NCBI RefSeq assembly: GCF_001456115.1
Contig: NZ_CP013264.1
Coordinates: 372,001-436,000, forward strand
DNA: 64,000 nt
From: Sphingobium baderi
GTDB taxonomy: Bacteria > Pseudomonadota > Alphaproteobacteria > Sphingomonadales > Sphingomonadaceae
Reading direction: 5' to 3'
A program made the position numbers and the translations under genes. The notes under the pieces are model-generated. The model had not been told where the DNA came from and did not search any database. It worked only from the letters and a program-made list of their open reading frames with translations. Below are positions 13,562-32,220 of this stretch, piece after piece (the stretch's first letter is position 1; the number at the start of each line of letters is the position of its first letter).

Positions 13562-13565
13562 ATGT

Positions 13566-13595
13566 CATAATGCCGTGATCCGGATTATGCCGCAT
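13566..13595 (+). repeat. RIT left 30-bp inverted repeat
   Basis: The 30 bases from CATAATGCCG to TTATGCCGCAT are the exact reverse complement of 16879-16908. A matching inner 12-bp pair (TTCGGCATAATC, 13640-13651) lies 44 bases further in. Confidence 0.95.
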
Positions 13596-13684
13596 CTGGT
13601 CGGCAGCGCGCGGTTGGCAGTATGATCGCGCCAATCCCATTCGGCATAATCTTCGTCGCTCCAACAACATGGAGCACGACGATC

Positions 13685-15834: not shown

Positions 15835-16823
15835 GCGCGGTTGCCTTGCCTGCGCTGATCCAGCGCTTCTTCACCGACCGGCTGTGCGTCCAGATGGAGG
15901 CGAGCCGTCATACGGTCGCAGGCTATCGCGACACGTTCCGGCTGTTGCTCCGGTATGCGAGCGCCCACCACGGCAAGCCGCCGGTCAGGCTCACGGTCGA
16001 GGATATCGACGCCGATCTGGTCGCCGACTTCCTCGTCCATACCGAGACGGCGCGTGGCAACAGCGCGCGCAGCCGCAACACCCGGCTCGCCGCGATCCGC
16101 TCGTTCTTCCGCTACGTGGCGATGAGCGATCCGACCTGGCTGCTGCACTGCCAGCGCATCCTCGCGATGCCCAACAAACGCTATGTGAAGCGCACGGTGA
16201 CGTTCCTCGACGCCGACGAGATCGCGGCGTTGCTGGCAGCGCCGGACCGCACGACATGGGCAGGGCGGCGCGATCATGCGCTGCTGCTGCTCGCGGTCCA
16301 GACGGGCCTTCGGGCATCCGAACTGGTTGGCCTCACGCGCGGGGATGTCGTGCTCGGAAGTGGCGCACACATCCGTTGCATGGGCAAGGGCCGGAAGGAG
16401 CGCGCCACACCGCTTCGTCGCGAGACTGCCAAGCTGCTGGCGGCGTGGATCGGCAACGACAAGGACGAGAGCAGACCGCTGTTCCCGTCGATCCGGGGCG
16501 AACGGCTGAGCCGCGACGCACTCGAACATCTGGTCCGCAAGCACTGCCTCACGGCATCGCGCGCGTGTCCGAGCATCGGCGCCAAGCGGGTCACGCCGCA
16601 TACGCTGCGCCACAGCACGGCGATGGACTTGCTTCACCACGGCGTCGATCCTGCGGTGATCGCGCTCTGGCTTGGTCACGAGAACGTCGAGACAACCCAG
16701 ATCTACATCCACGCCGACATGCGGATGAAGGAGAAGGCGCTCGCTCGCGTCGCGGCTCCGCCCACCCCGTCAGGCCGGTTCCGGCCCGACGATCAACTCC
16801 TCGCGTTCTTGGAAGGGCTCTGA
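15831..16823 (+). CDS. RIT tyrosine recombinase C
   Basis: 330 aa with the full set of motifs: QTGLRASELVGL, the HTLRHSTAMDLL box, WLGHENVETTQIYIHADM with the nucleophilic Tyr. It is the most XerD-like of the three. The stop at 16823 is immediately followed by the inner terminal repeat (GATTATGCCGAA, 16822-16833) and then 45 bases before the right 30-bp repeat. Confidence 0.9.
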   Translation: MSAVALPALIQRFFTDRLCVQMEASRHTVAGYRDTFRLLLRYASAHHGKPPVRLTVEDIDADLVADFLVHTETARGNSARSRNTRLAAIRSFFRYVAMSDPTWLLHCQRILAMPNKRYVKRTVTFLDADEIAALLAAPDRTTWAGRRDHALLLLAVQTGLRASELVGLTRGDVVLGSGAHIRCMGKGRKERATPLRRETAKLLAAWIGNDKDESRPLFPSIRGERLSRDALEHLVRKHCLTASRACPSIGAKRVTPHTLRHSTAMDLLHHGVDPAVIALWLGHENVETTQIYIHADMRMKEKALARVAAPPTPSGRFRPDDQLLAFLEGL

Positions 16824-16833
16824 TTATGCCGAA
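16822..16833 (+). repeat. RIT inner inverted repeat, right copy
   Basis: GATTATGCCGAA is the exact reverse complement of 13640-13651. It overlaps the last bases of the third recombinase gene. Confidence 0.8.
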
Positions 16834-16878
16834 CAGACGCATGGCCGATGCCCGGAAATCCAGCTTCCAGCGGAACCC

Positions 16879-16908
16879 ATGCGGCATAATCCGGATCACG
16901 GCATTATG
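16879..16908 (-). repeat. RIT right 30-bp inverted repeat
   Basis: Exact reverse complement of 13566-13595, abutting the ardC 5' fragment right after the codons for HELS. Confidence 0.95.
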
Positions 16909-17589
16909 CGATAGCTCATGGAAGGCCGTCCGGTAGAAATTGATCTGGTCGCGGAAGGCCGGTTGCGGCGGCACGGCCACGAAATCGCCGCCGGGCGCAT
17001 AATATGCCTTGTCGCCGCCGATGCGGAAATCCGCGCCCGTCGCCCGGATCAGTGCCTCAGCGTGTGGCACGATCTCGCGTTCCGGCAAGGGCGCAGCTTG
17101 CGTGGCCAGCGCGTTCAGGGCTTCTGGGCGCAGCCCTTCGCATTGGGCCACGTTGAAGACGGTGAACCTTTTCAGGAATGGGACGGCACGGGCGTCTTTG
17201 CCGGTTTCTCGTACCTTGGCCTTTTCGGCCTCGGGAATGAAGCGGTCGGCATAGACAACACAAGTTCCGCGCTCGCCCTTGCGGACGCTGCCGCCTGCTT
17301 CCAACGCCTGTTTGAAAGTGAGCCAGCATTGTGAGGGATAGTCCCCTTCGATGGCCGCACCCCAAAGCAAGAGAACATTGATCCCGGAATAGCGCCGGGC
17401 GGTGAGCGCGTTCATGGGCAGGCCAGGACCGCCTGCGACATGAGAATCCCACGGCTGAACCCACGGGAAGCGTTCTGCCTCCAGTTCGGAAATGATCTTG
17501 CGCGTCACCTCGTCACAGAGGCTCGCGCGGGGCTGCATCTTGTCCTCGCTGCCCTCTCCACGCGCGCGCCGTCTGCGGGAAAAGCCCAT
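16909..17589 (-). pseudogene. ardC: ardC 5' fragment (antirestriction protein ArdC, N-terminal part)
   Basis: The start at 17589 has GAAGGAGG upstream. The fragment encodes the ssDNA-binding N-terminal domain (LCDEVTRKIISELEAERFPW, then NALTARRYSGINVLLLWGAA) and runs to the zincin motif in FYRTAFHELSH. There the reading frame enters the RIT element and continues with foreign residues for about 100 codons. Known: ArdC proteins protect incoming plasmid DNA from restriction, and the intact motif would be HELSHWTGH. A truncated protein could keep ssDNA binding but lacks the third zinc ligand, so it is probably inactive as a protease. Confidence 0.9.
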
Positions 17590-18005
17590 GCCTAGCCTCC
17601 TTCACTGGCCCAAAACCGACCGCAAACCCGCCGGGCGTGGGGGGTGGGCGGCAGGAGCGACCAGAAAGGCCCGCGCCCAAGCGGCGGGCGGCACCCGAGG
17701 CGGGGCGAAACGAAGAGAAGCAGCCAAGCGGAGCGCAGGCTTGCCGCCCGCCGCTGCGGGCCTATCAGGGCGCGCCGACCACCCTCCGCGCCCAAGGGGT
17801 TGCAAACCCGAAAACGCCGGCGCGCAGCGGCGCGCCGGGCAACCGACCGGGGGCGGGCACGCCCCCGGCACGCGTCAGCGATCGTGACCGAATGGCCGGG
17901 ACGCGTGACACGCGGCCCGGTGGAGCATGGCGACGTCAGGAGCCTGGCGGAATAGAGCGCGACCGTCCGCGAGCGGACGGGACGCCACGGAAATCAGACT
18001 TCCCG
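17590..18005. other. Gene-free, very GC-rich stretch with two strong hairpins
   Basis: No gene is convincing here. Two perfect 9-bp hairpins stand in tandem: CCGGCGCGC/GCGCGCCGG (17817-17825, 17830-17838, loop AGCG) and CCGGGGGCG/CGCCCCCGG (17847-17855, 17860-17868, loop GGCA). They lie between two leftward genes and could terminate the DUF2285 transcript. The ardC promoter must also be here. Confidence 0.5.
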
Positions 18006-18804
18006 CTACCAATCTCCATCCAACAGGAATCTTCGATATCCAATCTCGACACGCTGTTCGGCCAGTTTCAGCAGCCGTCCGATTTTCTTGCGCGAAGAAT
18101 CAAAGCTCACCGCATCGGCCATTTTCGGTCCCAGAACGGCGATGACGGTTTCCCGCTGCCCCGCCCCGGCTCGGCGCGCATCGAGCACCTGCAAAGCCTG
18201 GACCCTTCGGGCCACGACCGGGTCGGCAGGGAACAGCGGACGCGGCAAGCGCCGAAGGCGCCAGAGAGCGGATAATCGCCGGAGCCCGAGAATCTGGGGA
18301 ATAACATGCCGCAGCGACGGAACCGTGAAGGAGAGCCGCACCGGCCCGTTCAGGATCGTCGCACCGTGCAGTTGCAGCCGCACATGACGAAGTCCATCAG
18401 CGATCAGCACATGCTCTGTCCCGCCATCCCGCAGGACAGCAATGCTGAGCGGCAAGTCGCGAAAATCGAGCGCGTTGGCGTCACCGGCGACAGCCTTGCG
18501 TGCCCTGGCCTCCAGCACTGTCGGGTCCCTATCCGCGCGCCAGAAGGCAAGGCCGGTATCGGCGTCCTCGGCGAAATCGAAGCCCCCGTGACGCGGGCTC
18601 GCCGCCGGTCAGAGTCAAAACACGGATCGGCGGATCCGGGCGCAGAATATGTTCATGAACAGGCGATGCCGGCATATCGGCCATTTCGGCATGGCGGCGG
18701 GCAAACGCGAAATCGACGGCTGCGCGGCCTAGCTGGAAGAGCGGACGATAGGTCGACCCGTCTCTCCAGTCGCGTGCTGGCGCATCCGGCGTTTCTGCCC
18801 GCAT
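18006..18804 (-). pseudogene. DUF6499-DUF2285 protein, frameshifted
   Basis: Two frames join into one backbone protein of about 265 aa. The N-terminal part (18804 leftward) reads DAPARDWRDGSTYRPLFQLG, then HEHILRPDPPIRVLTLTGGE (DUF6499-like). The C-terminal part reads FWRADRDPTVLEARARKAVA and later GLRHVRLQLHGATI (DUF2285). The switch falls at a run of five C on the plus strand (18583-18587): one base fewer restores a continuous reading. This is either a real inactivation, a sequencing error in a homopolymer, or programmed slippage. Known: these proteins are DNA-binding regulators of ICEs. Confidence 0.75.
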
Positions 18805-18967
18805 GTGCGCGGTCCTCCCCTTGCGTCCCTGACGGACGGATCGGATTGAGGGCAGCCATCGTGGTGAACCGCGACTACCTCAAGACACGGCGAGACACCG
18901 TGAAGAACAAAGGTGCTCCTCCCCGTAAATCCGGTGATTGTTCAGATAGATTGGCAGTGGAGTGCGG

Positions 18968-19627
18968 CTATCGGCGGAGAGCTTTTTCATGCCGCCAGCC
19001 TTCGTTGGTCAAAATCAGTGAAGCCTTGTCTTCACCCTGCCGGACATCCACTGCCTTCGCCATTCTGGGGAAGGCCGCGCGCAGGCCGGGGTCGGCGCTC
19101 CAGGGCGCAATATCGTCGAGCCGGTAGTTGTAGCGGACCTGCGAAACACGCAGGCCCATCAACTCACCGGGCTGCGTCCAGGACATGACTTCGGTAATAT
19201 GGCGCCGGGCGAAGCAGAGTTCATTGCGACCAAGAGAGGCGTCGGCCGCCTTGCTGATGACTTTGGCGCCTTCGCGGGTCGGCCGGTAGACGAGATAGTC
19301 GTCGACTCGATGCTTGCCGGAATAGGACGGCTGTTCCTCCTGCTTCTTCTCGATCGTCAGCAAGCCCGCCGCGACCATGGCCTCATAGCCTGTCCTGCTG
19401 CGGGAATGTGTGCCGACACGGATTTTCGCGGGCATGTCGCCGACGTTCACGCATTCGCCATGTTCGTCGAACCAGCTTTGCAGGGCCGCACGGAAATTGT
19501 CCTCGGTCGCATCCTGGACGCTACCGCAACTCGCCAGCAGGGCGGTCATCGCGGCCAATCCCCACCGCCGGCGGCCGGTCGATTGATGGGAATTATCCCG
19601 CTCCTCGAACCCTTCGCGTAAGTTCAT
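18968..19627 (-). CDS. Lipoprotein of the heme operon, unknown family
   Basis: 219 aa. The ATG at 19627 overlaps the tonB stop (ATGA). A basic segment RRRWGLAAMTALLASCGSV contains a lipobox (LASC), so the mature protein would be a lipoprotein beginning at Cys near residue 34; a later ATG just before ALLAS could also start it. The mature part has no motif I know. It is the last gene of the heme-uptake operon, sitting after its TonB, and might be an outer-membrane or periplasmic accessory to receptor, hemophore or TonB. Function not assigned. Confidence 0.7.
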   Translation of the reverse strand: MNLREGFEERDNSHQSTGRRRWGLAAMTALLASCGSVQDATEDNFRAALQSWFDEHGECVNVGDMPAKIRVGTHSRSRTGYEAMVAAGLLTIEKKQEEQPSYSGKHRVDDYLVYRPTREGAKVISKAADASLGRNELCFARRHITEVMSWTQPGELMGLRVSQVRYNYRLDDIAPWSADPGLRAAFPRMAKAVDVRQGEDKASLILTNEGWRHEKALRR

Positions 19628-20481
19628 CGGCGTGAACCGAGATAGAATTCGACCGGGATGGTGAGTTCGACTTCGTCGGGCATGTCCTTGGGAATGGCAG
19701 GCAAGGGCTGCGCGCGCTTCAATGTGTCGAGAGCCGCCTGATCCAATGTCGTGAAGCCGGAGCTTCGCAGCACCGATACGCTGAGGACGAAACCGGCCCG
19801 GTTCATCCGAAACCGGATCTGCACCGTGCCTTGCTGACGCGCCGCGCGAGCGCGCGACGGAAAACGGCGATAGTGTTCCAGATGCGCCAGCAACCGTGCT
19901 TCCCAGTTCTGCTTTGCATCGCTGGAAAGTTTGGCCGCGGCAGGCGCTGCGAGACTTTTGGGCGCTGTGGTTTCGGGAACGGGCGGACCCGGGTCGATCA
20001 CCGCTTCCACTGGCTCGCGCACTTCACGCACTAACGACGTGGTCTGGGGAAGCTGCACCATGGGCGGCGGTGCCACTATTGCGGGCTCTGGCTTGGGTCG
20101 ATCTTCCTGCCGTTCAACCTGCTTTGGACCAGTGGCAACCTCACGAGGCGGCTCCGGAGGGGCTGCGAGAGGCCGCAATTCCACGACCAGCGGAGCGGAT
20201 GGAGAAACGACCATCGGACGCACGACCCGCCATGTAAAGAACACGCATCCCAAGACCAGCGCGGTGATCATGGAGGTGCCGGCGATTCCGAACAGCCGCG
20301 TCCGCCAGTCCATCGGCTGATCGCAATAGCGGCTATGGCTCGGAGCGACAAAAATGGCCTGGGTCGGATCGTCCCTGTCGCCTTCGGCGGTACGTTGATC
20401 AAATCGATAGGAAACTATGACGGTGTTGCTGGCGAGCAGTCCATCTTCATCGTCCGGCACCCGTTGCAGATTATCCCTCAT
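19624..20481 (-). CDS. tonB: TonB family protein dedicated to heme uptake
   Basis: 285 aa with an unusually long cytoplasmic N-terminus of about 58 residues, one membrane helix (FGIAGTSMITALVLGCVFFT, about 64-83), a Pro/Glu-rich periplasmic spacer (PPEPPREVATGPKQVERQED and on), and a C-terminal TonB domain (about 190-285) with RFPSRARAARQQGTVQIRFR and VLRSSGFTTLDQAALD. It couples the proton-motive force to an outer-membrane receptor. The start overlaps the DUF454 stop and the stop overlaps the lipoprotein start. No exbB or exbD is present, so it must borrow the chromosomal pair. Confidence 0.9.
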   Translation of the reverse strand: MRDNLQRVPDDEDGLLASNTVIVSYRFDQRTAEGDRDDPTQAIFVAPSHSRYCDQPMDWRTRLFGIAGTSMITALVLGCVFFTWRVVRPMVVSPSAPLVVELRPLAAPPEPPREVATGPKQVERQEDRPKPEPAIVAPPPMVQLPQTTSLVREVREPVEAVIDPGPPVPETTAPKSLAAPAAAKLSSDAKQNWEARLLAHLEHYRRFPSRARAARQQGTVQIRFRMNRAGFVLSVSVLRSSGFTTLDQAALDTLKRAQPLPAIPKDMPDEVELTIPVEFYLGSRR

Positions 20482-20935
20482 TGCTGATCCCCGGCGTCGG
20501 ACGGCGGATGATCCATATGGCGGCAGCCAGCATCCCCGCCGCCACGGCGAGGGCCAGACCCATATTCGGCCTTACGTGGAGCCAGAACAGCCCGTAACCG
20601 GCCGTCATGCCGATGCAGGCCGCAACCTTGGCATGACGAGGAACGGCGCCTGTTTCCCGCCAGGCGCGAAGGCCGGGGCCGAAGCGGGGGTGACCCAGAA
20701 GCCAGGCTTCCAACCGAGGTGAAGATCTCGCAAAACAGGGCAGCGCCAGCAGCATGAAGTCCGTGGTGGGGAGGAGTGGCACGAAGATGCCGACAAATCC
20801 CACTGCCACCAACGACAGCCCAAGCACCAGCCAGCTGGATCGGGCTACAGGCCCGCGCCGGAGCAGGGCTTCGGTCGCGGGCTTGGTGCCGGGTTCAGCC
20901 CCAGGCTCAGCCCCAAGTTCAGCCAACGCGGGCAT
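20471..20935 (-). CDS. DUF454 (YbaN-like) inner membrane protein
   Basis: 154 aa from the ATG at 20935, inside the last codons of the heme oxygenase gene (17-base overlap). Sequence features: SWLVLGLSLVAVGFVGIFVP, LLPTTDFMLLALPCFARSSP, LEAWLLGHPRFGPGLRAWRE, the YbaN/DUF454 signature, with three to four membrane helices. Known: DUF454 genes repeatedly neighbour heme oxygenase and heme-uptake genes, but their role is undefined. The N-terminal leader has short repeats (GAEPGAEPGTKP). Confidence 0.85.
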   Translation of the reverse strand: MPALAELGAEPGAEPGTKPATEALLRRGPVARSSWLVLGLSLVAVGFVGIFVPLLPTTDFMLLALPCFARSSPRLEAWLLGHPRFGPGLRAWRETGAVPRHAKVAACIGMTAGYGLFWLHVRPNMGLALAVAAGMLAAAIWIIRRPTPGISNEG

Positions 20936-21512
20936 CGACCAATGCCTGTACACGCGCGAATGCAGCATTCGCACCTGCCACCGCGCGGGCGTCTTCCTCG
21001 GCAGACAGTTGCGCCGTATCGAGAGCGGCGGTGAACGCGCGCCAATGTGCGGCCGGCCCATCGGAGGCAGGCGCGAGATGCCGCGCGCCATGGTCGTCGG
21101 AAAGCCCGATCCTGGCCGCTTCCTTGCGGAGTAGGGCCGCGCCCATGTTCGACCCTTCGGCCACATAGAGCCAACCCAGCGCCGCAGAAATATCTATGAC
21201 ATCGGTCGCCGAAAACGCCGGAGGCGTGTCGTCATGAGGATGGGGTAGGCCGAGGTCAGCAAGGTCGGCGGCGATCAGCGGCAGGCGTCGCCGTTCCATC
21301 AAGCCGGGCAGAAGCGCCTGCAAGGCTGCATTGTCATACAGCGCGTCGATGTCCCGATGGAAAAGATACTGGACCGTGACGAAACGGCCATAGCCTTCAA
21401 CGGTAGCGAAGGAGGCGGCCGCCATGATCGACTTGTCGAGCCGGTCATGGGTTTCGTGGGTAAGCGCCTTCAAACGCTTGGCGCGGGAAGGTTCGAGAAT
21501 ATCAGTCTTCAT
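20919..21512 (-). CDS. Biliverdin-producing heme oxygenase
   Basis: 197 aa, with GAGGAG five bases before the ATG. It is an HmuO/PigA/BphO-type fold: the proximal heme-ligand His in RLKALTHETHDRLDK (probably H22) and the distal helix GWLYVAEGSNMGAALL with its Gly-rich kink. It degrades heme to biliverdin, CO and free iron in the cytoplasm. It follows the Slam gene in the same operon, so imported heme would be used as an iron source. A light-sensing role (BphO) is unlikely because no phytochrome is near. Confidence 0.9.
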   Translation of the reverse strand: MKTDILEPSRAKRLKALTHETHDRLDKSIMAAASFATVEGYGRFVTVQYLFHRDIDALYDNAALQALLPGLMERRRLPLIAADLADLGLPHPHDDTPPAFSATDVIDISAALGWLYVAEGSNMGAALLRKEAARIGLSDDHGARHLAPASDGPAAHWRAFTAALDTAQLSAEEDARAVAGANAAFARVQALVDARVG

Positions 21513-21592
21513 AGATGCTCCTCTTGCGATGAAAAAAGGGGGTTTGGGGCAAGCAGTCCGAAGGCAGGACGCGCGGCCAGGTTGGCGGAACG

Positions 21593-23158
21593 CTAGAAGG
21601 CATAATCCATCCTCACGGCCAGGCTGGTTTTCCGGTAGGAGTAAAGCCAGTCGACGGTGCTGCTGACGCGGCTATGTTGGACAAGAAGACTGGGCGTCAG
21701 GCCGGCAAAACGCAGCGCAGGAAACCGGACATTGGCGACGTAGTTCTGTTCGCGATCGCGGCGCTTGGCCTCCAGCAGTTCGCTGTAGGCGCGATAATCG
21801 CGCTGCCGCAGCGAAGCGAAGGCGAGCAGGCTGACGGCCTGCCCGAACTGCTTGTTCACGCCGAGCCGCAAGCCATATTGGCGGTAGGCATTGACCGGAT
21901 CATCGGCATCCTTGGCGGAGAAGTCTGGCCCTGCGAACACCGTCCAGCCGTGCGGGAGCACTTTCCAACCAGTCAGCAGCACCTCGATCAATGCACCGTC
22001 ATGATCTTGGTAGGACGGTAGACGGTAGGTGAACCAGCGACGGCTGGCCTCGATCTGGATCGCGGTCGTCGCGGAAGGATTGACCATCGTTTCCGCCCGG
22101 ATGCCAACGGCATCGTAAAGGATATCCGGCCCAAGCGATCCTATGTCGAACGTTGGCGACAGCGTGAAACTGGTCCGGGCGGTGCGGTAATCATAGCCCA
22201 GTTGCGTCGTCAGCGTGGTCTGGCTGTACCTGCCATGGTCGGGATAGATATCGCCGTAGAACAGCACGCGCCCGGTAATGCCGCTGTGTCCGCGAAGCGG
22301 AATGCGGCGGCTGATGCTGCTCTCGAAATTGATGCCCGTCGCCTCAATCGGATCCGGCACCTTGCGGTCGATGAGGCAAGTACCGTCCTCTCCTGTGAGC
22401 AGGCAGGTATAGCTGGCCGAAGACTGGTTGAGATTGCTGCTGTAACCCGGACCCAAGGCGATCGAGCCCTGCCAGCCGCGCCGATTGGCGAGAGCTTGCG
22501 TAAAGCTGTCGATGGTCCGAAGGACGCCTGCCGCCTTGTCGCCGTCGTCCGAAAGGGCGGCGCGGGCGGCTTCGAACAGACGGCGCGCCTCGCGATCCTT
22601 GTGGTTCTCGAACAGCACGCGCGCCAGCTCAAGTTGGCCAGGCACGAAATCGGGCTGCAGGCCAAGAAGTGTCCGGTACTGGCGTTCGGCCTCACGCAGT
22701 TTGCCGGCAATCCGCGCAAGCGCCCCCCGCGCATAAGCGACAAGCATCGGGTCACGATCTTCGAATGCCAGATAGGCTTGGAGAAAGCGCCGGACGTCTG
22801 GCCATTGCCTGCGTGCAACGGCGACATAGAGCGCCTCACCAACCTCGCTGACCGTATTGGCGACCGCGTACGTCTTGCCGTCGATCTCGATGGTCGATGG
22901 AACGCCGTCCAGATCGTCGGCATCCTTCAGCAATTGCCGTTCGACCTCGGCGTTCTGATTATCGAGGCTCTGGTCGAGGCGCAGCCGGGTATCGGCATTG
23001 CCCGAAGTCTGCGCCGCCGCGGTGCCAGCAAAGGTGCTAGCCATGGCAAGGCTCCAAGCAAGCCGGTACAGAAATTGGGCGCGATAAATCGTCACGAAAT
23101 GCGGGAGCCCTGATGGAAGAAAGGGGAATGGCCGGGAAACAGAGGCGCCATGCGGCAC
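21593..23158 (-). CDS. Slam-type outer membrane translocon (type XI secretion)
   Basis: 521 aa. A signal-like segment (LAWSLAMASTFAGTAAAQ) ends near residue 50, then a TPR-like periplasmic domain (about 100-220, with LVAYARGALARIAGKLREAE and LELARVLFENHKDREARRLF), then a C-terminal DUF560-type beta barrel (from about 240, GWQGSIALGPGYSSNLNQSS) ending in aromatic Phe. This is the architecture of surface lipoprotein assembly modulators, which move client proteins across the outer membrane. The client is almost certainly the hemophilin-like protein encoded 32 bases upstream. The start at 23158 is the best ATG (GGGG six bases before) but not certain. Confidence 0.85.
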   Translation of the reverse strand: MPHGASVSRPFPFLPSGLPHFVTIYRAQFLYRLAWSLAMASTFAGTAAAQTSGNADTRLRLDQSLDNQNAEVERQLLKDADDLDGVPSTIEIDGKTYAVANTVSEVGEALYVAVARRQWPDVRRFLQAYLAFEDRDPMLVAYARGALARIAGKLREAERQYRTLLGLQPDFVPGQLELARVLFENHKDREARRLFEAARAALSDDGDKAAGVLRTIDSFTQALANRRGWQGSIALGPGYSSNLNQSSASYTCLLTGEDGTCLIDRKVPDPIEATGINFESSISRRIPLRGHSGITGRVLFYGDIYPDHGRYSQTTLTTQLGYDYRTARTSFTLSPTFDIGSLGPDILYDAVGIRAETMVNPSATTAIQIEASRRWFTYRLPSYQDHDGALIEVLLTGWKVLPHGWTVFAGPDFSAKDADDPVNAYRQYGLRLGVNKQFGQAVSLLAFASLRQRDYRAYSELLEAKRRDREQNYVANVRFPALRFAGLTPSLLVQHSRVSSTVDWLYSYRKTSLAVRMDYAF

Positions 23159-23190
23159 CCCTGTCCCATTGCCGTGTCGGCTGCGAAGGT

Positions 23191-23967
23191 TCAGTTCTTT
23201 GTGCCACCGAACGCGGTGTTGTATTGGCGCGCGGAAGAGAAGTTCACGATGCCGGCCAGAGCGGCCGCGTTTGCGCCGAAGAAGCGGCCCGAAACGATGC
23301 CACTCGACGCCACGGTACTACCCGACTGCGTCGCTGTTGCGCCGGTGCCCGCAAAGTTGGTGCCAGCGATCGTCGCCGTGCCGATGTTGACGGCATAGCC
23401 CGAGCCGGAATTGGCGATGCTGCCGGTCAGCGTCCCCGACGTGCCCGACCCGAAGTTGGCTGTGAAGGTGCCGGTCAGCAGGCCCTTGTTGGCATAATCG
23501 CTGACGCCCTTGACGGAATAGGTCGCCGAACCACTGGTCGGAACGGTGGTCGTGCCGCCATCATCACCCGCATAATAAACGGTGTGCGTACCGTCCCCGA
23601 CACTCGACGTCTGCGACCATTCGCCGAAGTAGAGGTTGGCGCTGCCAACCTTGGCGAAATGAAAGACGCCAAGATTGCTGTGATCGGTGGGGACGCTGGT
23701 CCCGGCGTTAATGGTGCTGACTCCATTGCCATCGGTCCCGACCGAGGATTGCAGGCCCTGGAAATCTACGAGGTTGCTGAGCCCCGTGGCCGGAACCGCG
23801 ATGCCTGGTCGTCCGGATACGTGTGGCCCGCCGTTTACGGTACTGGTGCCGACCACGACTTCGCTGGTATCGCTGGAGGCCCCATAGATGCCGGCATGGG
23901 CAGTCCCGGCGAAGAATGCCGATGCGGCGAGCGCAATGGCAATCCGGTTGAGATTCGAGAGTTTCAT
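23191..23967 (-). CDS. Hemophilin-like secreted hemophore with TbpB-like barrel
   Basis: 258 aa from the ATG at 23967 (AGGAGAA five bases upstream). A clear Sec signal peptide ends THAHAG-like at AHA|G (about residue 26), and there is no lipobox Cys, so it should be released rather than anchored. The N-terminal half (about 27-150) is a probable heme-binding domain with scattered His; the C-terminal half is a Gly/Ser/Thr-rich eight-stranded barrel of the TbpB/Lipoprotein-5 type (GTFTANFGSGTSGTLTGSIA; GIVSGRFFGANAAALAGIV; ending AFGGTKN). This matches the design of Slam-dependent hemophilins (HphA type), whose barrel is the translocation signal. Heme binding itself is inferred from neighbours. 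Confidence 0.82.
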   Translation of the reverse strand: MKLSNLNRIAIALAASAFFAGTAHAGIYGASSDTSEVVVGTSTVNGGPHVSGRPGIAVPATGLSNLVDFQGLQSSVGTDGNGVSTINAGTSVPTDHSNLGVFHFAKVGSANLYFGEWSQTSSVGDGTHTVYYAGDDGGTTTVPTSGSATYSVKGVSDYANKGLLTGTFTANFGSGTSGTLTGSIANSGSGYAVNIGTATIAGTNFAGTGATATQSGSTVASSGIVSGRFFGANAAALAGIVNFSSARQYNTAFGGTKN

Positions 23968-24082
23968 GCTAGTTCTCCTACGTTCGAGTTGCCTGCGAGC
24001 AGGCGCTTGCACCCAGGGTTCGCCACCGCATCCATGTCTTTGTGAGGGATCGGGATGTGGCGGCGGCCCTGAATTTCCATGA

Positions 24083-27000
24083 TCAGAACCGGCCAGTCAG
24101 GCTGAGGCGGACCGTGCGACCCGGAGCGGGATTGAGCGCGCGCGTCAGCGGATCGGCATAATATTTGTCGGTGAGGTTGGTGCCGACGAGTTCGGCGGAA
24201 AACCGCTCGTTCAACCGAAACTGCACATAGGCATCGAGGGTCAGCGTCTCGCCCCAGGCATATGGAACGTTGAGCGCATAGCCGTCGATCGGGTCGTCGC
24301 CGCCAACCAGTTCGGCCAAAAGCGGATTGTCATATTTGCTGTACCAGGTGAGCCTGCCACCGACTTCAAGCCGCCGTTGAAGGAAACGCCCACCGACGGT
24401 CCAATTGACAGTGTCTTCCGGAGTTGCCTGGGTGAGCAGATAGCCGCCGAAAAAGCCATATTTGACGCAATCCGGTACCCGGCCCGATCCGCTGTCCATC
24501 TGGACGGCGACGCTTTCGTCGCAGACCTTGTTGGTGGTCATGTGGCCCGCCTCGATCTCGGTGAAGAACGTGCCATTGTCGTAACGGGCTTGAAGCTCGA
24601 AACCGGCGATGACCTGCTTGTCGATGTTGTTGAACATCAGCCGGGTGGTGCGTTCGATCACGTTGTGCGTGGTGTTGCGATACCAGGTGAACTTGATGTC
24701 GGCAGCCTGATCGGCGCCATGTAAGCCGAAGAGGTCTCGAAGATCCTGGACGTAAGCTGCTTCCCAAGAGTAGAGATGTTCCGGCTTCAAATCTTCGAGC
24801 GGGTTGAAGGACGCCGAAAAGCCGAGCGTGCTCTCGAACATGCTGGGGAAGCGATAGGCTTCGGCATATCGCAGATAGGCTCGGCTGCTGCCGCTAAGAT
24901 AGACGGTGGCCGACGCCATCGGCGCCCAGCCATGGCCTGACTTGCGCTTGGATTCGCTGGGAGTGAAGGCCTGCTGATTGGCGAGCGCCTGACAAAAGCC
25001 ATTATAATTGGCAAGACTATCGACGAAGCCATTGGCGCAGAGATTATCGGCGCGATGGTAGTTGCCGTTGGCATCCGCTTCCCAGGGCGACGTGTGATCG
25101 ACCGTGAAAGGATAGGGGTTGGCGGCATAGGCCTGGGCTTCGCTCGCCGCGAGCATGTCCGCGAGTTCAGATGGAAAGCCGAACCCTTCCCAGACCGCTT
25201 TCCGATAGGCCGTATAGGCGTCTACACTGGTTTCTTCCGTCTGGTAGGTAATCGCATAGCTGGTGGGAACATAGGCCGTGAACTGGTCGGCATTGCCCGC
25301 AGCGATCTGTTCGCGCAGAAAATCGTCTACCGCCCAATAGCCGGAATAAGTGAACCCCGCGTTGAACTTGAGGAAGCTCGCTGGGCGCCATTCGGCCTTG
25401 AGGTCAATCCGATATTCCTCACGCCGCCCTGCACGCGGGTATTGCCGCCAGCCGTCGAAGACGCCGTTCCATTCGTCCATCGACCGCAATTTTTCATGTT
25501 GCCAATTGCCCTCCAGCAGCAAGTCGAGATGCGAAGACAGTTTCATCTGGTTGCTGGCAGAAAATCCGATCCGGTTGTTCTGCGAATTGGCGATCGCCGT
25601 GTTGCGCAGGATGGGATCGTCATAGGTGGCGTAATTCGGAAAACCGCCGGCGCTGTAGGTGTGGCTGGCCGTGCGGGTCACCCAGAGATTCGCCTTCAGG
25701 TCGATCCACCGGCTTTCCGGCTGCCATTTATATTCCGCATTATAGGCCTGGGCATGGATGCGGCTCAGCGGCCACTGGATCGCTCCGAAATCGTCGGCGG
25801 AAAGGATGCGCGAAGGCATGATCTCGCCATAGTTGGACTTGCTGTCGCGGAAGCCGAACTGGAGATACTGGTCATCGGCAATGTGCCAAGTGCCCTTGAA
25901 TAACCAGGATCTGGTTTCAGACGAGGTATTCGGTACCTCGTTGCCGGGCTCATAGCTGAGCGCCATGCGCTGCATGTAGGTCGCGGCGGATTGCTCAAGG
26001 TCGTCCTGCGAATAATAGCCCGCGCCATTTTTCCCCGAGAAATAGTTGCCGCGCTTGCGCCAGGCGTAGGCGCCAAACAAGTCTATGTCGCCGATACGGC
26101 CGGCGACTGCCAAGCGCGCCGCCTTGTCGCCCATGGAAAAGAAGTCGTTGTCGTCCGCCGTGCGCAGATTTACGCGCAGCGAAGGGTCATTATAGGGCGA
26201 GGTCGGATAGCCCGCTGTTCCGGGAGAGCCGGGAAAGCCCTCCACGTCGCGATAATCCTGCCCCGTCAACAACGTCGGCAGGCGCGGCGAGGTGGAATTA
26301 TTGCCACCCTCCAGCTTCAGTTCGAAACCGAATGTCTGGTCCGGTTGCAATATGTCGTCGGCATCGAGCGTGTTGATGACGACCGCGCCGCCGGTCGATC
26401 CGTTGACATCGCGCGTCGAGACCGGTCCTTTTAGTACCTGAACGCCAGCGATCAGGCTGGGATCGATATAGCTGCGGTTACTCGCGCCATTATAGCCGCG
26501 CCAGACCGTCAGCGCCTGTTCGGTCCCGTCGATGATGACCGGCACGCGCCCCGGCCCCTGCGTGCCGCGAATGCTAGGATCGATCGCGCCACTATTGCGC
26601 GCGTCCCCGCTGAAGACATTGACCATGCCCTTCAGCACGTCGGCGGGATTGGTGCCCTTATAGCGCTCGACTTCCTCCTTGCCCATGTAGGTGGAGGAAA
26701 GGTCCTGATCGTAGACGGCGTCCTTTTGTCGTTGGTCACGCTCCGCGCCGGTTTCACCGGCCGGCATGGCGCTGCCCTCCACGCGCAGGGAACCCAGCGC
26801 GATCGTATCGGACGCTGTCGGGTCCGCTGACGCGATGGATGCGGAGCGCAGCGACACGATGTTGCCGTCGATCCGCGCCACAAGGCCGGTGGAGGCAAGC
26901 AGGCGGTCCAGTGCCTGCGACGCGCTCATCGTACCTTTGACGCCCCGAGAGGAAAGCCCCCGGACCTGATCGGCGTCCATGCTGACTTGGAGACCAGATT

Positions 27001-27193
27001 GCCGGCCAAAATCTGCCAGTGCGTCCGCGACCGATTGCGGCGCGATGTCGAACGAGCGCACTTCTTCAGCAACGGTTACCTGCGCCCGTACAGCCATTGA
27101 GATACTCAAGCCACCAATGGCGACCGAAGCGAGCAGCGCCCGCACCCAGAGTTGACGCCTCCCAAACTCCCGGAAAATACCCCCCGAATTCAC
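24083..27193 (-). CDS. TonB-dependent heme/hemophore receptor with STN signalling domain
   Basis: 1036 aa from the GTG at 27193 (AAGGAA eight bases upstream); an ATG at 27232 is possible but has no ribosome site. Order: signal peptide (VRALLASVAIGGLSISMAVRAQ), STN domain (about 40-105: RSFDIAPQSVADALADFGRQ... ASQALDRLLASTGL), plug (about 150-300, with VPVIIDGTEQ and GVQVLKGPVS), large barrel ending in SLTGRF. Known: STN domains relay substrate binding to a FecR-type anti-sigma factor. Adjacent hemophore and heme oxygenase genes identify heme or heme-hemophore as the likely ligand. Confidence 0.9.
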   Translation of the reverse strand: MNSGGIFREFGRRQLWVRALLASVAIGGLSISMAVRAQVTVAEEVRSFDIAPQSVADALADFGRQSGLQVSMDADQVRGLSSRGVKGTMSASQALDRLLASTGLVARIDGNIVSLRSASIASADPTASDTIALGSLRVEGSAMPAGETGAERDQRQKDAVYDQDLSSTYMGKEEVERYKGTNPADVLKGMVNVFSGDARNSGAIDPSIRGTQGPGRVPVIIDGTEQALTVWRGYNGASNRSYIDPSLIAGVQVLKGPVSTRDVNGSTGGAVVINTLDADDILQPDQTFGFELKLEGGNNSTSPRLPTLLTGQDYRDVEGFPGSPGTAGYPTSPYNDPSLRVNLRTADDNDFFSMGDKAARLAVAGRIGDIDLFGAYAWRKRGNYFSGKNGAGYYSQDDLEQSAATYMQRMALSYEPGNEVPNTSSETRSWLFKGTWHIADDQYLQFGFRDSKSNYGEIMPSRILSADDFGAIQWPLSRIHAQAYNAEYKWQPESRWIDLKANLWVTRTASHTYSAGGFPNYATYDDPILRNTAIANSQNNRIGFSASNQMKLSSHLDLLLEGNWQHEKLRSMDEWNGVFDGWRQYPRAGRREEYRIDLKAEWRPASFLKFNAGFTYSGYWAVDDFLREQIAAGNADQFTAYVPTSYAITYQTEETSVDAYTAYRKAVWEGFGFPSELADMLAASEAQAYAANPYPFTVDHTSPWEADANGNYHRADNLCANGFVDSLANYNGFCQALANQQAFTPSESKRKSGHGWAPMASATVYLSGSSRAYLRYAEAYRFPSMFESTLGFSASFNPLEDLKPEHLYSWEAAYVQDLRDLFGLHGADQAADIKFTWYRNTTHNVIERTTRLMFNNIDKQVIAGFELQARYDNGTFFTEIEAGHMTTNKVCDESVAVQMDSGSGRVPDCVKYGFFGGYLLTQATPEDTVNWTVGGRFLQRRLEVGGRLTWYSKYDNPLLAELVGGDDPIDGYALNVPYAWGETLTLDAYVQFRLNERFSAELVGTNLTDKYYADPLTRALNPAPGRTVRLSLTGRF

Positions 27194-27240
27194 TTGACCA
27201 ATTCCTTCCGTCACAGTTCGATGACTGACCATATTCGCTA

Positions 27241-27293
27241 ATGCGAGTCAGTCGCATAAACTTAACGTTGGAACGCCGATGAATTCCGGAAAA
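27241..27293 (-). promoter_or_regulatory. ECF-type promoter and iron-box operator of the receptor gene
   Basis: Minus strand: TTTTCCGGAAT (27283-27293), 15 bases, CGTTAA (27262-27267), then the palindrome ATGCGA-N5-TCGCAT (27241-27257) where transcription would start. The same promoter layout recurs before fecR. The palindrome resembles Fur sites of this group. Confidence 0.6.
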
Positions 27294-27326
27294 ATCTGAA
27301 GAACAGAGCAAAAAGTGATGTCGCGC

Positions 27327-28310
27327 CTAGCGGACAGTCACGATCCGCAGCCACGGCGAGACATGGGAAACCGAAACCTTATGCGCTCGCGCCAGTGCCT
27401 TCAGCGCAAGATCGGGATCGCGCAGATCATAGATCCCGCTCACGTGCCGGTCACTCAGTCCCGGGCCTCTGGCGATGATATAGCCTTTGTACCAGGGACG
27501 GATACGATCGATCACGTCGCCAACTGGCAGATCATTGACGATAGCGATCCCATCGCGCCAACTCGCCACGCGGTCGGGACGGACAGTGCCCCGTGTAACC
27601 ACGGTTCCATCCGTCGACACTGACTGGCCCGCCACCAGTTCCACGCGATCCGATCGCATCCCGTCCGACGCAGTCACGGCGACACGACCGCGCTGAACGG
27701 CAACATCCGTACCGCTGCCCGTTTTGCGCACCGAGAAGGCCGTGCCGAGAACGGTGACGGTGTTGTCTCCGGCTATGACCTTGAATGGATGTGCTTCGTC
27801 GTGCGTGACGTCAAACCAGGCTTCGCCGCGAAGCAGTTTCAACCTGCGGCCCGCGGCATCGTTGGAAAAGGCAATTGCCGTGGCCGGCGCCAGTTGCACC
27901 CTGCTCCCATCGTCAAGCGTCACCTGACGGAGTTCTCCGGCCCCGGTGGTCGCATCAGATTGAAGCTGAAGCGCGACATAGGGCACTGCAATCCAGACAA
28001 AGCAGGCGGCCACGGCAAGCGAGGCGAGCGCACGCACGGGACGGATGGTCCGGAACCAGGCAGGTTTGCTCGATCCCTCGGGCAGGTCGGTCATGTTCTG
28101 AGGCAGAGGGCCCGCAAGCACTATCATGTCGGAGACCCTCGCAGTTTCCTCCCAGGCGGCGAGGTGAGCCGGACTGGTCGCGAGCCAATCCATGAATTCC
28201 GCGCGCAGTGTATCGTCTTCCGGGGCATCCTCAAGTTGCACCAGCCACGCGGAGGCTTGGCGGCTGAGATCGCCGCGCTGGCTATGATTCTTGTCAGGCC
28301 TCGTTTTCAT
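27327..28310 (-). CDS. FecR-type anti-sigma factor
   Basis: 327 aa from the ATG at 28310 (GGAAG five bases upstream). An earlier ATG at 28373 overlaps the proposed -10 box and lacks a ribosome site. The N-terminal DUF4880 domain (LSRQASAWLVQLEDAPEDDT... WLATSPAHLAAWEE) is followed by one membrane helix (ASLAVAACFVWIAVPYVAL, about 95-115) and a periplasmic FecR domain (LDDGSRVQLAPATAIAF... GTAFSVRKTG) with a C-terminal STN-interaction region. It holds the sigma factor until the receptor's STN domain signals. Encoded between its sigma factor and its receptor. Confidence 0.9.
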   Translation of the reverse strand: MKTRPDKNHSQRGDLSRQASAWLVQLEDAPEDDTLRAEFMDWLATSPAHLAAWEETARVSDMIVLAGPLPQNMTDLPEGSSKPAWFRTIRPVRALASLAVAACFVWIAVPYVALQLQSDATTGAGELRQVTLDDGSRVQLAPATAIAFSNDAAGRRLKLLRGEAWFDVTHDEAHPFKVIAGDNTVTVLGTAFSVRKTGSGTDVAVQRGRVAVTASDGMRSDRVELVAGQSVSTDGTVVTRGTVRPDRVASWRDGIAIVNDLPVGDVIDRIRPWYKGYIIARGPGLSDRHVSGIYDLRDPDLALKALARAHKVSVSHVSPWLRIVTVR

Positions 28311-28373
28311 CCCCGCTTCCGCATACCGTTCTGCACTGTCCCACTGACGAATGTTCTGAATGGTTTCATGCAT

Positions 28374-28408
28374 TGAACGAACGGGACGCCAAGCATTCCG
28401 GAAAATTC
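28374..28408 (-). promoter_or_regulatory. ECF-type promoter upstream of fecR
   Basis: Minus strand: GAATTTTCCGGAAT (28395-28408), 15 bases, CGTTCA (28374-28379). It matches the receptor promoter in both boxes and in spacing, and lies right after the sigma-factor stop. It would let the released sigma factor amplify fecR. Confidence 0.55.
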
Positions 28409-28417
28409 AGCAGAAGG

Positions 28418-28918
28418 TCAATCACGGCGCCGCAGAGCCTTCTTGCAATGTTCTACGCCATCCATCACCAGTTCCTGCGCCAAGCTTTTCGAGATGCCGA
28501 GTTCAGCGGCGATCTCCACCAGTTTCATCTCCTCGAAACGGTGCATTTCGAAAGCTCGCCGGGTCCGAACGGGCAGTTGCGCCATGGCCTTGTGAAGCAG
28601 CGCCAGTTCGTCCTTCGCTTCCAAATGCTTCTGCTGAGAGGGTTCATCGCTCGCTACCAATGCGGCGGCGATGGTCGCATCTGATGCGAAGACCTGATTT
28701 TCGCGCGCCCGGCGCCTGTGCCGATCCAAAACAAGGTTATGGACGATGCGGAAAAGATAGCCTTTGGGTTCGTCAAGCACGCGCGCACTGGCCGCTGCAC
28801 GGAAACGCAGCCAGGCTTCCTGCACCACATCCTCAGCCTCGGTCGAATCCCCCGTAAGTCTTGCCGCGTAACGGAGAAGCTCCGCCTGAGCGGCGACGAA
28901 GACCTGGAGGGAATCCAT
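28418..28918 (-). CDS. FecI-type ECF sigma factor
   Basis: 166 aa from the ATG at 28918, giving MDSLQVFVAAQAELLRYAAR; a GTG at 28978 lies only 8 bases from the iron box and has no ribosome site. Region 2: STEAEDVVQEAWLRFRAAAS and GYLFRIVHNLVLDRHRRR; region 4: LPVRTRRAFEMHRFEEMKLV and IAAELGISKSLAQELVMDGV. Known: FecI-like sigma factors transcribe the cognate TonB receptor when the ligand binds. It heads the heme operon, downstream of a palindromic iron box. Confidence 0.92.
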   Translation of the reverse strand: MDSLQVFVAAQAELLRYAARLTGDSTEAEDVVQEAWLRFRAAASARVLDEPKGYLFRIVHNLVLDRHRRRARENQVFASDATIAAALVASDEPSQQKHLEAKDELALLHKAMAQLPVRTRRAFEMHRFEEMKLVEIAAELGISKSLAQELVMDGVEHCKKALRRRD

Positions 28919-28986
28919 CTTGGACACCCGCACCGGCTCCCCTTGTTTATCAATGACAACCAGCGAGATGCGTAGCACTTCACTTA

Positions 28987-29003
28987 TTGCGAACCAATCG
29001 CAA
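28987..29003 (-). promoter_or_regulatory. Fur-like box before the sigma factor gene
   Basis: TTGCGA-N5-TCGCAA, a perfect 6+5+6 palindrome about 70 bases upstream of the sigma-factor start. Same half-sites as the operator at 27241-27257. Suggests iron repression of the signalling cascade. Confidence 0.6.
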
Positions 29004-29095
29004 AAATTCTCGCAAGCTCATGATCCGACGATGTCCAGTGCCATGCACGCCACAACGGAAGGAAGGGCGCTTGGTCATTTTCGCATGGAATGCGT

Positions 29096-29350
29096 TCAGA
29101 TTTCCTCGGTCTGACGCGCGCTCAGATAAGTGCCCAGCAAGTCGCCCGGATCGAGATCAAGTGCTCTTGCCACCGCTACGAACTCGACCACATCCACTCG
29201 GCGCTCCCCCAACTCATATTTGGCAACAAAGGATTGGTGGCGTCCCAGCCGTGTCGCCAATTCGGTTTGCGTCAGCCTGGCGTTCTTGCGGGCATCGATC
29301 AGGATTTCCCGAAGTTTCTGTTGTTGTGGTGTGCGAAGTGAACTGGGCAT
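29096..29350 (-). CDS. XRE-family transcriptional regulator
   Basis: 84 aa from the ATG at 29350. A compact HTH_3 domain: [60 protein letters not shown]. This protein type is common in ICE backbones next to DUF2285 genes, usually as a regulator of excision or transfer. It is divergent from the next small gene. It marks the resumption of element backbone after the heme operon. Confidence 0.85.
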
Positions 29351-29453
29351 CGGGTCCGGCAAGTTGAAGGGGCCGGAATTTCCTTTGATCCCAAATTCGG
29401 ATTATCCCATAACGGGATTAGAAGGGCCTGTGTCCAATATCGGAATGCCAGAA

Positions 29454-29738
29454 ATGGTCGAAATCGAACCTGCGGTCGCTGATCTCGCTCCTACGGCAGA
29501 TCAACTCACACCGTATGATGAGGCAAGGCTGCGCTTGTATCTGCGGCTCCTCGACGCCGAAGCCGAAGGTGCGGACTGGCGGGAAGTTGCTCGAATTGTG
29601 CTGAAGCGCGATCCCGCCCGAGAACCGGGGCGGAGCCGCCTGTGTTGGTCCACCCATTTGAGCCGTGCCCGGTGGATCGCTGGGAGGTGCTTCGGCGAAG
29701 CAATCAGCCCTGGAACAAGAAAATCGAGAAGAAAATAG
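29454..29738 (+). CDS. Short DUF2285-associated protein, possibly truncated
   Basis: 94 aa in this frame. The stretch TPYDEARLRLYLRLLDAEAE, GADWREVARIVLKRDPAREP, RLCWSTHLSRARWIA matches a short family that accompanies DUF2285/XRE genes in alphaproteobacterial elements. After RARWIA the sequence departs from what I expect of that family (normally a TEXGYRXLL-like end), so the 3' end may be frameshifted or replaced. The ribosome site is weak. Role unknown, probably regulatory. Confidence 0.5.
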   Translation: MVEIEPAVADLAPTADQLTPYDEARLRLYLRLLDAEAEGADWREVARIVLKRDPAREPGRSRLCWSTHLSRARWIAGRCFGEAISPGTRKSRRK

Positions 29739-30058: not shown

Positions 30059-32200
30059 ATGAGGGATTGTCTATTTTGGAGTGCGGCCATCATGGCGATG
30101 GCCACGGCGCAAACGGCCTGGGCCGATGATGCGGATGGTGCCGCCGCCGAACGCCGCAGCGACATCATCGTGACCGGGATTGCCCAACGGGTGGACGCTG
30201 CCGCCACCGGCCTGCCACTCACGCTGCGCGAAACACCGCAATCGGTCACGATCATCGACCGCGAGCGGATCGACGATTTCGCGCTCACCAACGTCAATGA
30301 CCTGCTTGACCAGGTGGTCGGCATCAACGTCGAGCGGACCGAGACCGATCGCACCGAATATGACAGCCGTGGCTTCGACATCACCAATTTCCAGGTGGAC
30401 GGCATCGGCCTGCCGCTGCGCTGGGGCATCCAGTTTGGCGATCTCGATACCGCGCTGTTCGAGACGGTGGAGGCGGTGCGCGGCGCCAATGCCATCATGA
30501 CCGGGGTGGGCAATCCCTCGGCGACGATCAACTATGCCCGCAAGCGGCCGACGAAGGATCTCCAAATCTCGGCATCGACGATGCTCGGAAGCTGGGATCA
30601 CAAACGCTTCGAGGCGGACGTCTCGGGGCCGCTCAATGCCACAGGTACGGTGTCAGCGCGGCTGATCTACGCGCATGACGATCATGACAGCTATCTCGAC
30701 AACTATCACGTCAATCGCAACGTCTATGGCGCGATCGTCGTGTGGGACATCACGCCGCAGCTGACCGCTACGACGGGCTACACCCGGCAGGAGAATGACG
30801 CCGACGGTGTGCTTTGGGGCGCCTTGCCTCTCCTCTATTCCAATGGCGAACGGGTCGCATATCCTTCGTCCGCGTCGACGGCGGCACCCTGGACCTATTG
30901 GAACGTCCACGACCAAAGCGCCTATGGCGAACTCGCTTATGCCGCCGAAGGCGGATGGAATGCCAAGGCGCGCTTCACCTATAACCGGCGCGATTCGGTC
31001 GCCAACTTGCTCTACGCCTATGGCTACCCCGATGAGGCAACGGGGCTGGGCGTAAGCGGCGTGACCGGCATCTACACCTCGCCGTCCAATCAATATCTCT
31101 ACGACGCCTATGCCTCCGGCCCGGTGACGCTGTTCGGTCGGCGTCACCAACTGGCGTTCGGCCTGTCGACCGCGAAAATGGACAGCCGGGAATATGAAGA
31201 CTTCTCGAGTACGGTTCTCGATTATCCCGCTGTCAGCGACTGGGCGTTCAATGGCGTCGATCTCGCCCGGCCGTCATATCCCGGCGCTTATCGTGCAGAG
31301 AATGTGACCGACCGGCTGACGCGGGCCTATGGCGCCATGCACCTCAACCTGGCCGACCGTCTCAAGGCCGTGGTCGGTGCGAGCGCAATGTGGCTGAAGA
31401 CGACCGGGGATTCCTATTTCGTCGATCAGTACCGCAAGGACAGCAAGGTCAGCCCTTATGCCGGGCTGGTGTTCGATGTAACGGGCAATGTCTCGCTCTA
31501 CGCAAGCTACACCGACATCTTCAATCCGCAGAAGGAAGCGGACGCCACCGGTCGTCGCCTCGCGCCCGCCAAGGGTACCAGCATCGAAAGCGGCATCAAG
31601 AGCGAATGGTTCGACAAGAAGCTCTACGTCAGTGCGGCGCTGTTCAAGGCAAAACAGGACGGGCTTGCCGATGCCATCGGCGTGTTCGGCGATGCCACCT
31701 GCGGCAGTACCGGGCCGATCGGCGATGCCTGCTATGCCGGCGTCGATACGACCTCGGAAGGCTTCGAGATTGAGGTGACGGGCCGCGTGACCGAAAATTG
31801 GTCGATCAGCGGCGGCTATACCGGGCTCAGGGTCAAGGATCAGGACGGCAATCCCACCCGTACTTTCGTGCCGCGCCGGTCACTGAAACTCGCAACCACT
31901 TATGAAATTCCTGAATTGCGCGATCTCAAGCTTGGCGCGCAGTTTCGCTGGCAGAGCAAGACCAGCATCGTCGATGCGGGTGTCGTCGATTACGGCATCG
32001 TCACCGACCCGGTCACCATCACCCAGAGCAGCTATGCCGTGCTCGATCTGATGGCCGGTATCCGTCTGGTCGATCACCTGCGCGCCAGCGTCAATGTGCG
32101 CAACGTCACCGGCTCCAAATATCTCGGTAGCCTCAAATGGGGGCAGGCCTTCTACGCCGCCCCGCGCAGCGTGCTGGCGACGCTCAGCTTCAGCTATTGA
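30059..32200 (+). CDS. TonB-dependent siderophore receptor (FpvA/FhuE-like)
   Basis: 713 aa. The ATG has AAGGGG close upstream. Signal peptide to about residue 22 (TAQTAWADD). The TonB box region (DIIVTGIAQR) and plug (TPQSVTIIDRERIDDFALTN; FDITNFQVDGIGLP; EAVRGANAIMTGVGNPSATI) are typical of ferric siderophore receptors, with a barrel to a terminal aromatic (LATLSFSY). It lacks an STN domain, so it does not signal through a FecR. First gene of an operon with a second receptor, a PepSY protein and a small membrane protein. The substrate cannot be read from sequence; hydroxamates are the usual ligands of near relatives. Confidence 0.88.
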   Translation: MRDCLFWSAAIMAMATAQTAWADDADGAAAERRSDIIVTGIAQRVDAAATGLPLTLRETPQSVTIIDRERIDDFALTNVNDLLDQVVGINVERTETDRTEYDSRGFDITNFQVDGIGLPLRWGIQFGDLDTALFETVEAVRGANAIMTGVGNPSATINYARKRPTKDLQISASTMLGSWDHKRFEADVSGPLNATGTVSARLIYAHDDHDSYLDNYHVNRNVYGAIVVWDITPQLTATTGYTRQENDADGVLWGALPLLYSNGERVAYPSSASTAAPWTYWNVHDQSAYGELAYAAEGGWNAKARFTYNRRDSVANLLYAYGYPDEATGLGVSGVTGIYTSPSNQYLYDAYASGPVTLFGRRHQLAFGLSTAKMDSREYEDFSSTVLDYPAVSDWAFNGVDLARPSYPGAYRAENVTDRLTRAYGAMHLNLADRLKAVVGASAMWLKTTGDSYFVDQYRKDSKVSPYAGLVFDVTGNVSLYASYTDIFNPQKEADATGRRLAPAKGTSIESGIKSEWFDKKLYVSAALFKAKQDGLADAIGVFGDATCGSTGPIGDACYAGVDTTSEGFEIEVTGRVTENWSISGGYTGLRVKDQDGNPTRTFVPRRSLKLATTYEIPELRDLKLGAQFRWQSKTSIVDAGVVDYGIVTDPVTITQSSYAVLDLMAGIRLVDHLRASVNVRNVTGSKYLGSLKWGQAFYAAPRSVLATLSFSY

Positions 32201-32220
32201 TCAGATCCGGGGGGAAACGA

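Follow-up and report, generated by a model that had tools for sequence, protein, structure and literature searches.

What is the nature of the nine-gene cluster present on the minus strand of Sphingobium baderi contig NZ_CP013264.1: a heme-scavenging system of a new kind, or a form of a known one? The cluster occupies positions 18968-28918 of the 64,000-nucleotide stretch analyzed here (contig positions 372,001 to 436,000), which we call the window. A previous interpretation made from the letters alone (the sequence-only reading) had described it as a self-contained operon and its combination of genes as little described. We estimate the probability at about 0.92 that it is the form that the hemophilin locus (hph/hemO) takes in sphingomonads, with a Has-like organization in which a type XI secretion pair replaces the HasA hemophore and its exporter. 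The locus is real, complete and well identified; it is a relative of the Acinetobacter baumannii system and is not new in kind.

The nine tightly packed open reading frames (ORFs) previously listed were all recovered at the same minus-strand coordinates, and eight of their products matched profiles above the Pfam curated cut-offs, which define the domain calls for the locus proteins; the exception was the ninth, a lipoprotein. In order of transcription, they encode a FecI-like extracytoplasmic function (ECF) sigma factor (28418-28918; Sigma70_r2 4e-14, Sigma70_r4_2 1.7e-11), a FecR-type anti-sigma factor/signal transducer (27327-28373; FecR 1.1e-23, DUF4880 2.5e-10), an HphR-type TonB-dependent heme/hemophore receptor with an STN signaling domain, a plug and a barrel (24083-27232), an HphA-type soluble hemophore, or hemophilin (23191-23967), a Slam, or type XI secretion outer-membrane protein (21593-23158), a biliverdin-type heme oxygenase (20919-21512; PF01126 Heme_oxygenase 7.6e-20), a small, probably inner-membrane DUF454 (YbaN-like) protein (20471-20935; PF04304 2.6e-35), TonB (19624-20481; TonB_C 5.7e-17) and a small lipoprotein (18968-19627), the gene for which overlaps the tonB stop. 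By eye, the Slam start is more likely to be the GTG at 23095, and that of DUF454 the ATG at 20935, overlapping the end of the heme-oxygenase gene. This domain content bears out the proposal of a Slam/hemophilin heme-scavenging locus that lies in an island-like setting in a sphingomonad and brings along its own sigma/anti-sigma pair as well as an STN receptor, a TonB and a heme oxygenase. The term “self-contained” was an overstatement, as neither a recognized inner-membrane heme permease nor ExbBD was found within 18968-28918, and the ninth gene lies outside the conserved set.

The hemophore matched HphA_N (PF22828, 1.1e-39) and HphA_C (PF22829, 3.6e-29) above the Pfam cut-offs, TbpB_B_D at 6e-8, and the NCBIfam profile slam_lipo with 140 bits (cut-off 80). 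It was modeled with a clamp and an eight-stranded barrel, and its top PDB matches were the solved HphA structures; the sequence-only reading had named the lack of a TbpB-like barrel as a ground for refutation, and such a barrel is present in the model. Residues H49 and H96 align with H43 and H106, the bis-histidine heme ligands of A. baumannii HphA (PMC8560813), and were conserved in 119 and 116, respectively, of the 121 rows of an alignment of the window hemophore with the best 120 of its 407 homologues. The hemophore would, on the basis of these residues, take up heme with the two histidines. Its signal peptide is type-I-like by eye, with cleavage between AHA and G. Since it contains no cysteine, the protein is expected to be soluble and released rather than lipidated, despite the NCBIfam name for the family (“Slam-dependent surface lipoprotein”); in contrast, a lipobox has been reported for A. 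baumannii HphA (PMC8560813).

The adjacent Slam displays both hallmarks of such proteins, an N-terminal TPR domain (TPR_Slam, PF24575, 1.2e-22) and a DUF560 barrel (SlipAM, PF04575, 1.3e-37), the latter having been the other feature singled out for verification, and is 36% identical to A. baumannii HsmA. Plasmids also carry Slam relatives: of 45 records with a match, 25 were from Klebsiella, with about 32% identity among the Klebsiella matches listed. Aligned over 1066 columns, the receptor and A. baumannii HphR are 42% identical; in the PDB, the receptor sequence is best matched by HasR structures (5e-26), within residues 53-314 only. With an STN domain on the receptor and adjacent FecI-like and FecR-like genes, the locus has the components of cell-surface signaling; STN was also detected in all six other receptors scanned, five of them above the Pfam cut-off (L028 was below). 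The solved relatives of the heme oxygenase are 1sk7 (1.3e-41) and 1j77 (2.4e-37), and an N-terminal histidine is common to the alignments.

In the annotation of the A. baumannii hemO locus (CP040048.1), the order is sigma factor, DUF4880 protein (in the FecR position), TonB receptor, transferrin-binding-protein-like protein, DUF560 protein, TonB, heme oxygenase and DUF454. The same eight genes, the last given as hypothetical, are described in PMC10483418, and HphA, HsmA and HphR have been studied experimentally in this species (PMC8560813). The window and hemO (heme cluster 2) therefore have eight homologous genes on one strand and an identical axial histidine pair, all the components that define a hemO/hph locus (sigma, FecR, HphR, HphA, Slam, TonB, heme oxygenase and DUF454) being present together; protein identity is lowest for sigma and TonB (24%) and highest for the receptor (42%). 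They differ in the position of TonB, which precedes the heme oxygenase in hemO and follows DUF454 in the window, in the extra lipoprotein gene of the window, and in their surroundings: mobile-element genes flank the window locus, whereas the only element reported around hemO is an insertion sequence at a distance of about 3 kb (PMC10483418).

This gene set also recurs elsewhere. We compared 27 loci (the window, L006-L028 and L031-L033; L031, a copy of L020, was counted), and all eight homologues were found in 19, 16 of which are sphingomonad. As for the remainder, L007 and L015 are cut by contig ends, L016, L017, L019 and L026 lack DUF454, and the Aggregatibacter loci L023 and L024 contain only the receptor-HphA-Slam core. 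L028 has the full set, spread over both strands. Of the 19 full sets, 12, that of the window among them, have TonB after DUF454; in L011-L014, L022, L025 and L028 it precedes the heme oxygenase. Coordinates in this comparison are those of first starts, which produces some false ORF overlaps, and in an earlier comparison some DUF454 genes were masked by a filter for overlaps. In one Luteibacter locus (L. anthropi, L017), ExbB/ExbD-like ORFs (by eye; 12860-14001) lie between the heme oxygenase and TonB, in the slot expected for DUF454; the other (L016) contains a second HphA-like ORF (15203-15955). The conserved set comprises eight genes, the lipoprotein gene being present in two of the 27 loci, the window and L008. 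This lipoprotein has an LLASC lipobox by eye. No Pfam or NCBIfam family matched it at E 0.1, and the only solved chain recovered (E 0.0044) was not convincing, as no stretch of it passed. The proteins of this kind that were found number 10, its own sequence included; judging from this distribution, it is a lineage add-on outside the core set.

The view of this combination as little described was not supported: the eight-gene set is that of A. baumannii hemO and recurs in 19 of the 27 loci, and surveys already cover both the Sphingomonadaceae and these neighbors. A subcluster of type XI secretion system (T11SS) proteins comes “largely from environmentally isolated Sphingomonadaceae” (PMC8406197), the window Slam being a candidate member, and the neighbors of cluster 1 T11SS proteins include heme oxygenase (137/1,111) and DUF454 (118/1,111; PMC12282271). 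No experimentally studied alphaproteobacterial hph locus was found among the papers listed from the literature searched, which mostly excluded subscription papers. Hemophilins have also been surveyed in J. Bacteriol. (2024).

Two further known systems resemble the locus. The Has operon of Serratia marcescens (hasI-hasS-hasR-hasA-hasD-hasE-hasB; PMC9249621) has the same order of sigma factor, anti-sigma factor, receptor with signaling domain, hemophore, exporter and TonB homologue. However, the window hemophore is of the HphA type and the exporter is a Slam, the heme oxygenase and DUF454 genes lie within the locus, and the HasA-type hemophore with its own exporter pair that characterizes Has was not found there; the locus would work in a Has-like manner, but is not Has. 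HasR as the best PDB match of the receptor, together with the repetition of the has gene order, suggests that the locus follows Has-type logic, a T11SS pair having taken the places of hemophore and exporter. Xenorhabdus Hrp and Haemophilus hemophilin (T11SS-1B) likewise combine a soluble TbpBBD cargo with a DUF560 protein, a TonB receptor and TonB (PMC8406197), but sigma/FecR and heme oxygenase are not named for them in the available part of that source.

A Fur-like palindrome, TTGCGATTGGTTCGCAA, lies just upstream of the sigma gene (28987-29003, minus strand) and is similar to the operator in a Magnetospirillum Fur co-crystal, TTGCAAATCATTTGCAA (PMC4506495); the available part of PMC6120978 contained no Fur motif term. 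With the search pattern taken from the window sequence, it was detected with no more than two mismatches, and at much the same spacing from the sigma gene, in 19 of the 21 loci covered, L021 and L025 being the exceptions (L015, L023, L024, L028 and L032 lie outside the count). For these 19 loci, between 0 and 7 of 300 single-base shuffles matched as well as the actual sequence. A second, less perfect copy is present at 39691-39707, about 30 bases 5' of an ORF at 39737 (a TonB receptor by eye); the search that gave it returned four matches, both strands counted, versus 0.46 expected. Upstream of the receptor gene, the intergenic stretch 27233-27326 (minus strand) looks, by eye, like a putative ECF promoter, with a T-run and GTT in all nine aligned loci and GGAA in eight (L033 differs).

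The locus most likely reached the host genome by recent horizontal transfer, as judged from sequence divergence. Its DNA is 94% identical to that of Novosphingobium indicum and 83% identical to that of Aurantiacibacter xanthus, in each case over 9.4 kb. For N. mathurense (L008), the value is 89% over 12.8 kb, an alignment that spans window positions 16907-29685 and takes in most of an ArdC-like gene. The host glutathione synthetase, in contrast, is 85-92% identical in all seven same-genus genomes searched, 72-74% identical in four genomes behind Sphingomonas/Hephaestia loci and 64-69% identical in seven behind Novosphingobium/Aurantiacibacter loci. The difference between 94% locus DNA identity and 69% core protein identity for N. 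indicum argues for recent between-genus transfer. The nearest relatives of the hemophore had at first suggested Novosphingobium as the host genus, an assignment given up in view of the glutathione synthetase values. HphA_N was found in four of 100 genomes (the host and its relatives), all from its own genus. The L008 receptor clusters with that of Aurantiacibacter (L009), away from that of the window, and the L008 Slam clusters with that of the window; this comparison suggests a separate exchange of the receptor gene.

T11SS genes are associated with transposases and tRNA genes (PMC12282271), and the surroundings of the locus are of a mobile type. On one side are an ArdC-like anti-restriction gene (16591-17589, minus strand; ArdcN 7.2e-39) and three overlapping tyrosine-recombinase-like ORFs (13622-16823, plus strand; Phage_integrase 3.7e-19 for the middle ORF), which we take to be a recombinase in trio (RIT); the N. 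mathurense contig stops close to the point matching this trio. On the other side, an integrase (35931-36956, minus strand; Phage_integrase 2.7e-27) marks a possible island edge. A DUF3363 relaxase-like gene (Relaxase profile just below the cut-off) and genes for an S26 peptidase, a ParB-like protein and DUF2958 are also found around the locus. Adjoining the locus, at 30059-35525, are two ORFs that resemble TonB-dependent receptors by eye, together with one for a PepSY_TM protein, and the island may carry further iron uptake genes there. Two Met/His-repeat-rich ORFs at 1-1749 resemble copper-resistance proteins by eye.

Elsewhere, genomes G030 (L031) and G295 (Hephaestia caeni, L020) have in common a stretch that includes the hph locus and measures about 196 kb in the former and 186 kb in the latter; four insertions in G030 divide it into five blocks of 99.96-100% identity. 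A tRNA-Pro lies no more than two bases from one end, and no notable common direct repeat was found at the ends. Their glutathione synthetases are 90% and 73% identical to that of the host, and the genomes look like different genera; contamination of one of the two assemblies may be the source of the common stretch. An ORF in L058 (14202-15827) resembles a large serine recombinase by eye.

Several points weigh against the interpretation as a sphingomonad hph/hemO locus with Has-like organization. The evidence is wholly computational. The sigma factor, FecR and TonB are only 24-26% identical to their A. baumannii counterparts, and the receptor matched NCBIfam heme-receptor profiles below their cut-offs. 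The Fur-like palindrome was not found in A. baumannii or in a Lysobacterales metagenome-assembled genome (two of the 21 loci), so regulation may differ there. Finally, the transfer argument is drawn from one core protein and fixes no direction.

Under this interpretation, Fur would leave the 28987-29003 operator under low-iron conditions and the sigma/FecR pair would be made. The hemophore would be exported by the Sec pathway, pass through the outer membrane via the neighboring Slam and be released, as for HsmA/HphA and HrpB/HrpC, and would then bind heme through its two histidines and pass it to the STN receptor. By analogy with HasR and FecA, the receptor would import heme with the dedicated TonB and signal via FecR to the sigma factor, switching on the receptor promoter. 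Heme would then cross the inner membrane, and the heme oxygenase would release the iron.

The inner-membrane step is imposed by the cytoplasmic location of the heme oxygenase, and could be performed either by a host ATP-binding cassette (ABC) system or by DUF454. We consider it unlikely that DUF454 carries, or helps to carry, heme to the heme oxygenase in place of an HmuTUV-type ABC permease. In its favor, DUF454 adjoins the heme oxygenase in most of the loci compared. Moreover, HemS was found in only two of 17 hph-bearing genomes, both Luteibacter, in neither of which DUF454 was found (one is a metagenome-assembled genome) and both of which have a cluster of HemS, substrate-binding protein, FecCD and ATPase genes (L035 for one) read as hmu by eye. 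YbaN, a protein of unknown function, belongs to the Escherichia coli Fur regulon (PMC7157518, PMC10164565; predicted in PMC3136457 and PMC3224099), and a DUF454 gene is upregulated under iron restriction in Avibacterium (PMC7970244). Against such a role, the HemS/DUF454 contrast concerns a single lineage rather than independent cases, two to three FecCD genes are present in seven of the 17 hph-bearing genomes, the host has a second DUF454 copy elsewhere, and L019 and L026 have no DUF454 in the locus. HemS was not found in the host genome, which encodes one FecCD permease beside a TonB receptor (best profile vitamin B12, below cut-off); the neighboring ATPase has heme ABC ATPase as its best NCBIfam profile (8.1e-70, below cut-off and just above corrinoid), with a Peripla_BP_2 gene adjacent, so that this ABC system could carry heme, which also argues against a DUF454 permease. 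The single SBP_bac_5 protein of the host makes a Dpp-like heme route possible. Among 190 alphaproteobacterial genomes, DUF454 was found in 62, heme oxygenase in 14 and both in six, side by side only in the host and on different contigs in three. In 18 aligned DUF454 sequences, including the second host copy, a PxxPT motif and one histidine are invariant. The DUF454 structure model (predicted local distance difference test score, pLDDT, 65.6) was too poor for use.

Somewhat less probable still is a Slam/hemophore system for a non-heme ligand, another tetrapyrrole or a metal complex, such as chlorophyll products or cobalamin. Some T11SS may serve cobalamin or molybdopterin uptake (PMC12282271), and the sub-threshold heme-receptor matches would be consistent with this, but the retention of both heme-ligand histidines and of the HphA_N heme-binding domain, and a heme oxygenase within the operon, argue for heme. 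A genuinely new nine-gene architecture particular to alphaproteobacteria, as initially suggested, would fit the position of TonB and the lipoprotein gene overlapping it, but is very improbable and already contradicted, given that A. baumannii has eight of the nine genes in nearly the same order, that sphingomonads display both TonB positions and that the ninth gene is so rare.

For the sphingomonad hph/hemO locus, the analysis adds evidence of between-genus transfer, a mobile-element setting and conservation of the Fur-like operator. By the sequence signs described here, sphingomonads would carry, as transferable cargo with its own regulators, a hemophore/T11SS unit on which experiments have been done in gammaproteobacteria. 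This raises two testable questions: which heme source is tapped by the secreted hemophore, and what role is played by the Fur-regulated DUF454/YbaN protein, which is of interest because some hosts of the locus display no clear heme ABC permease.

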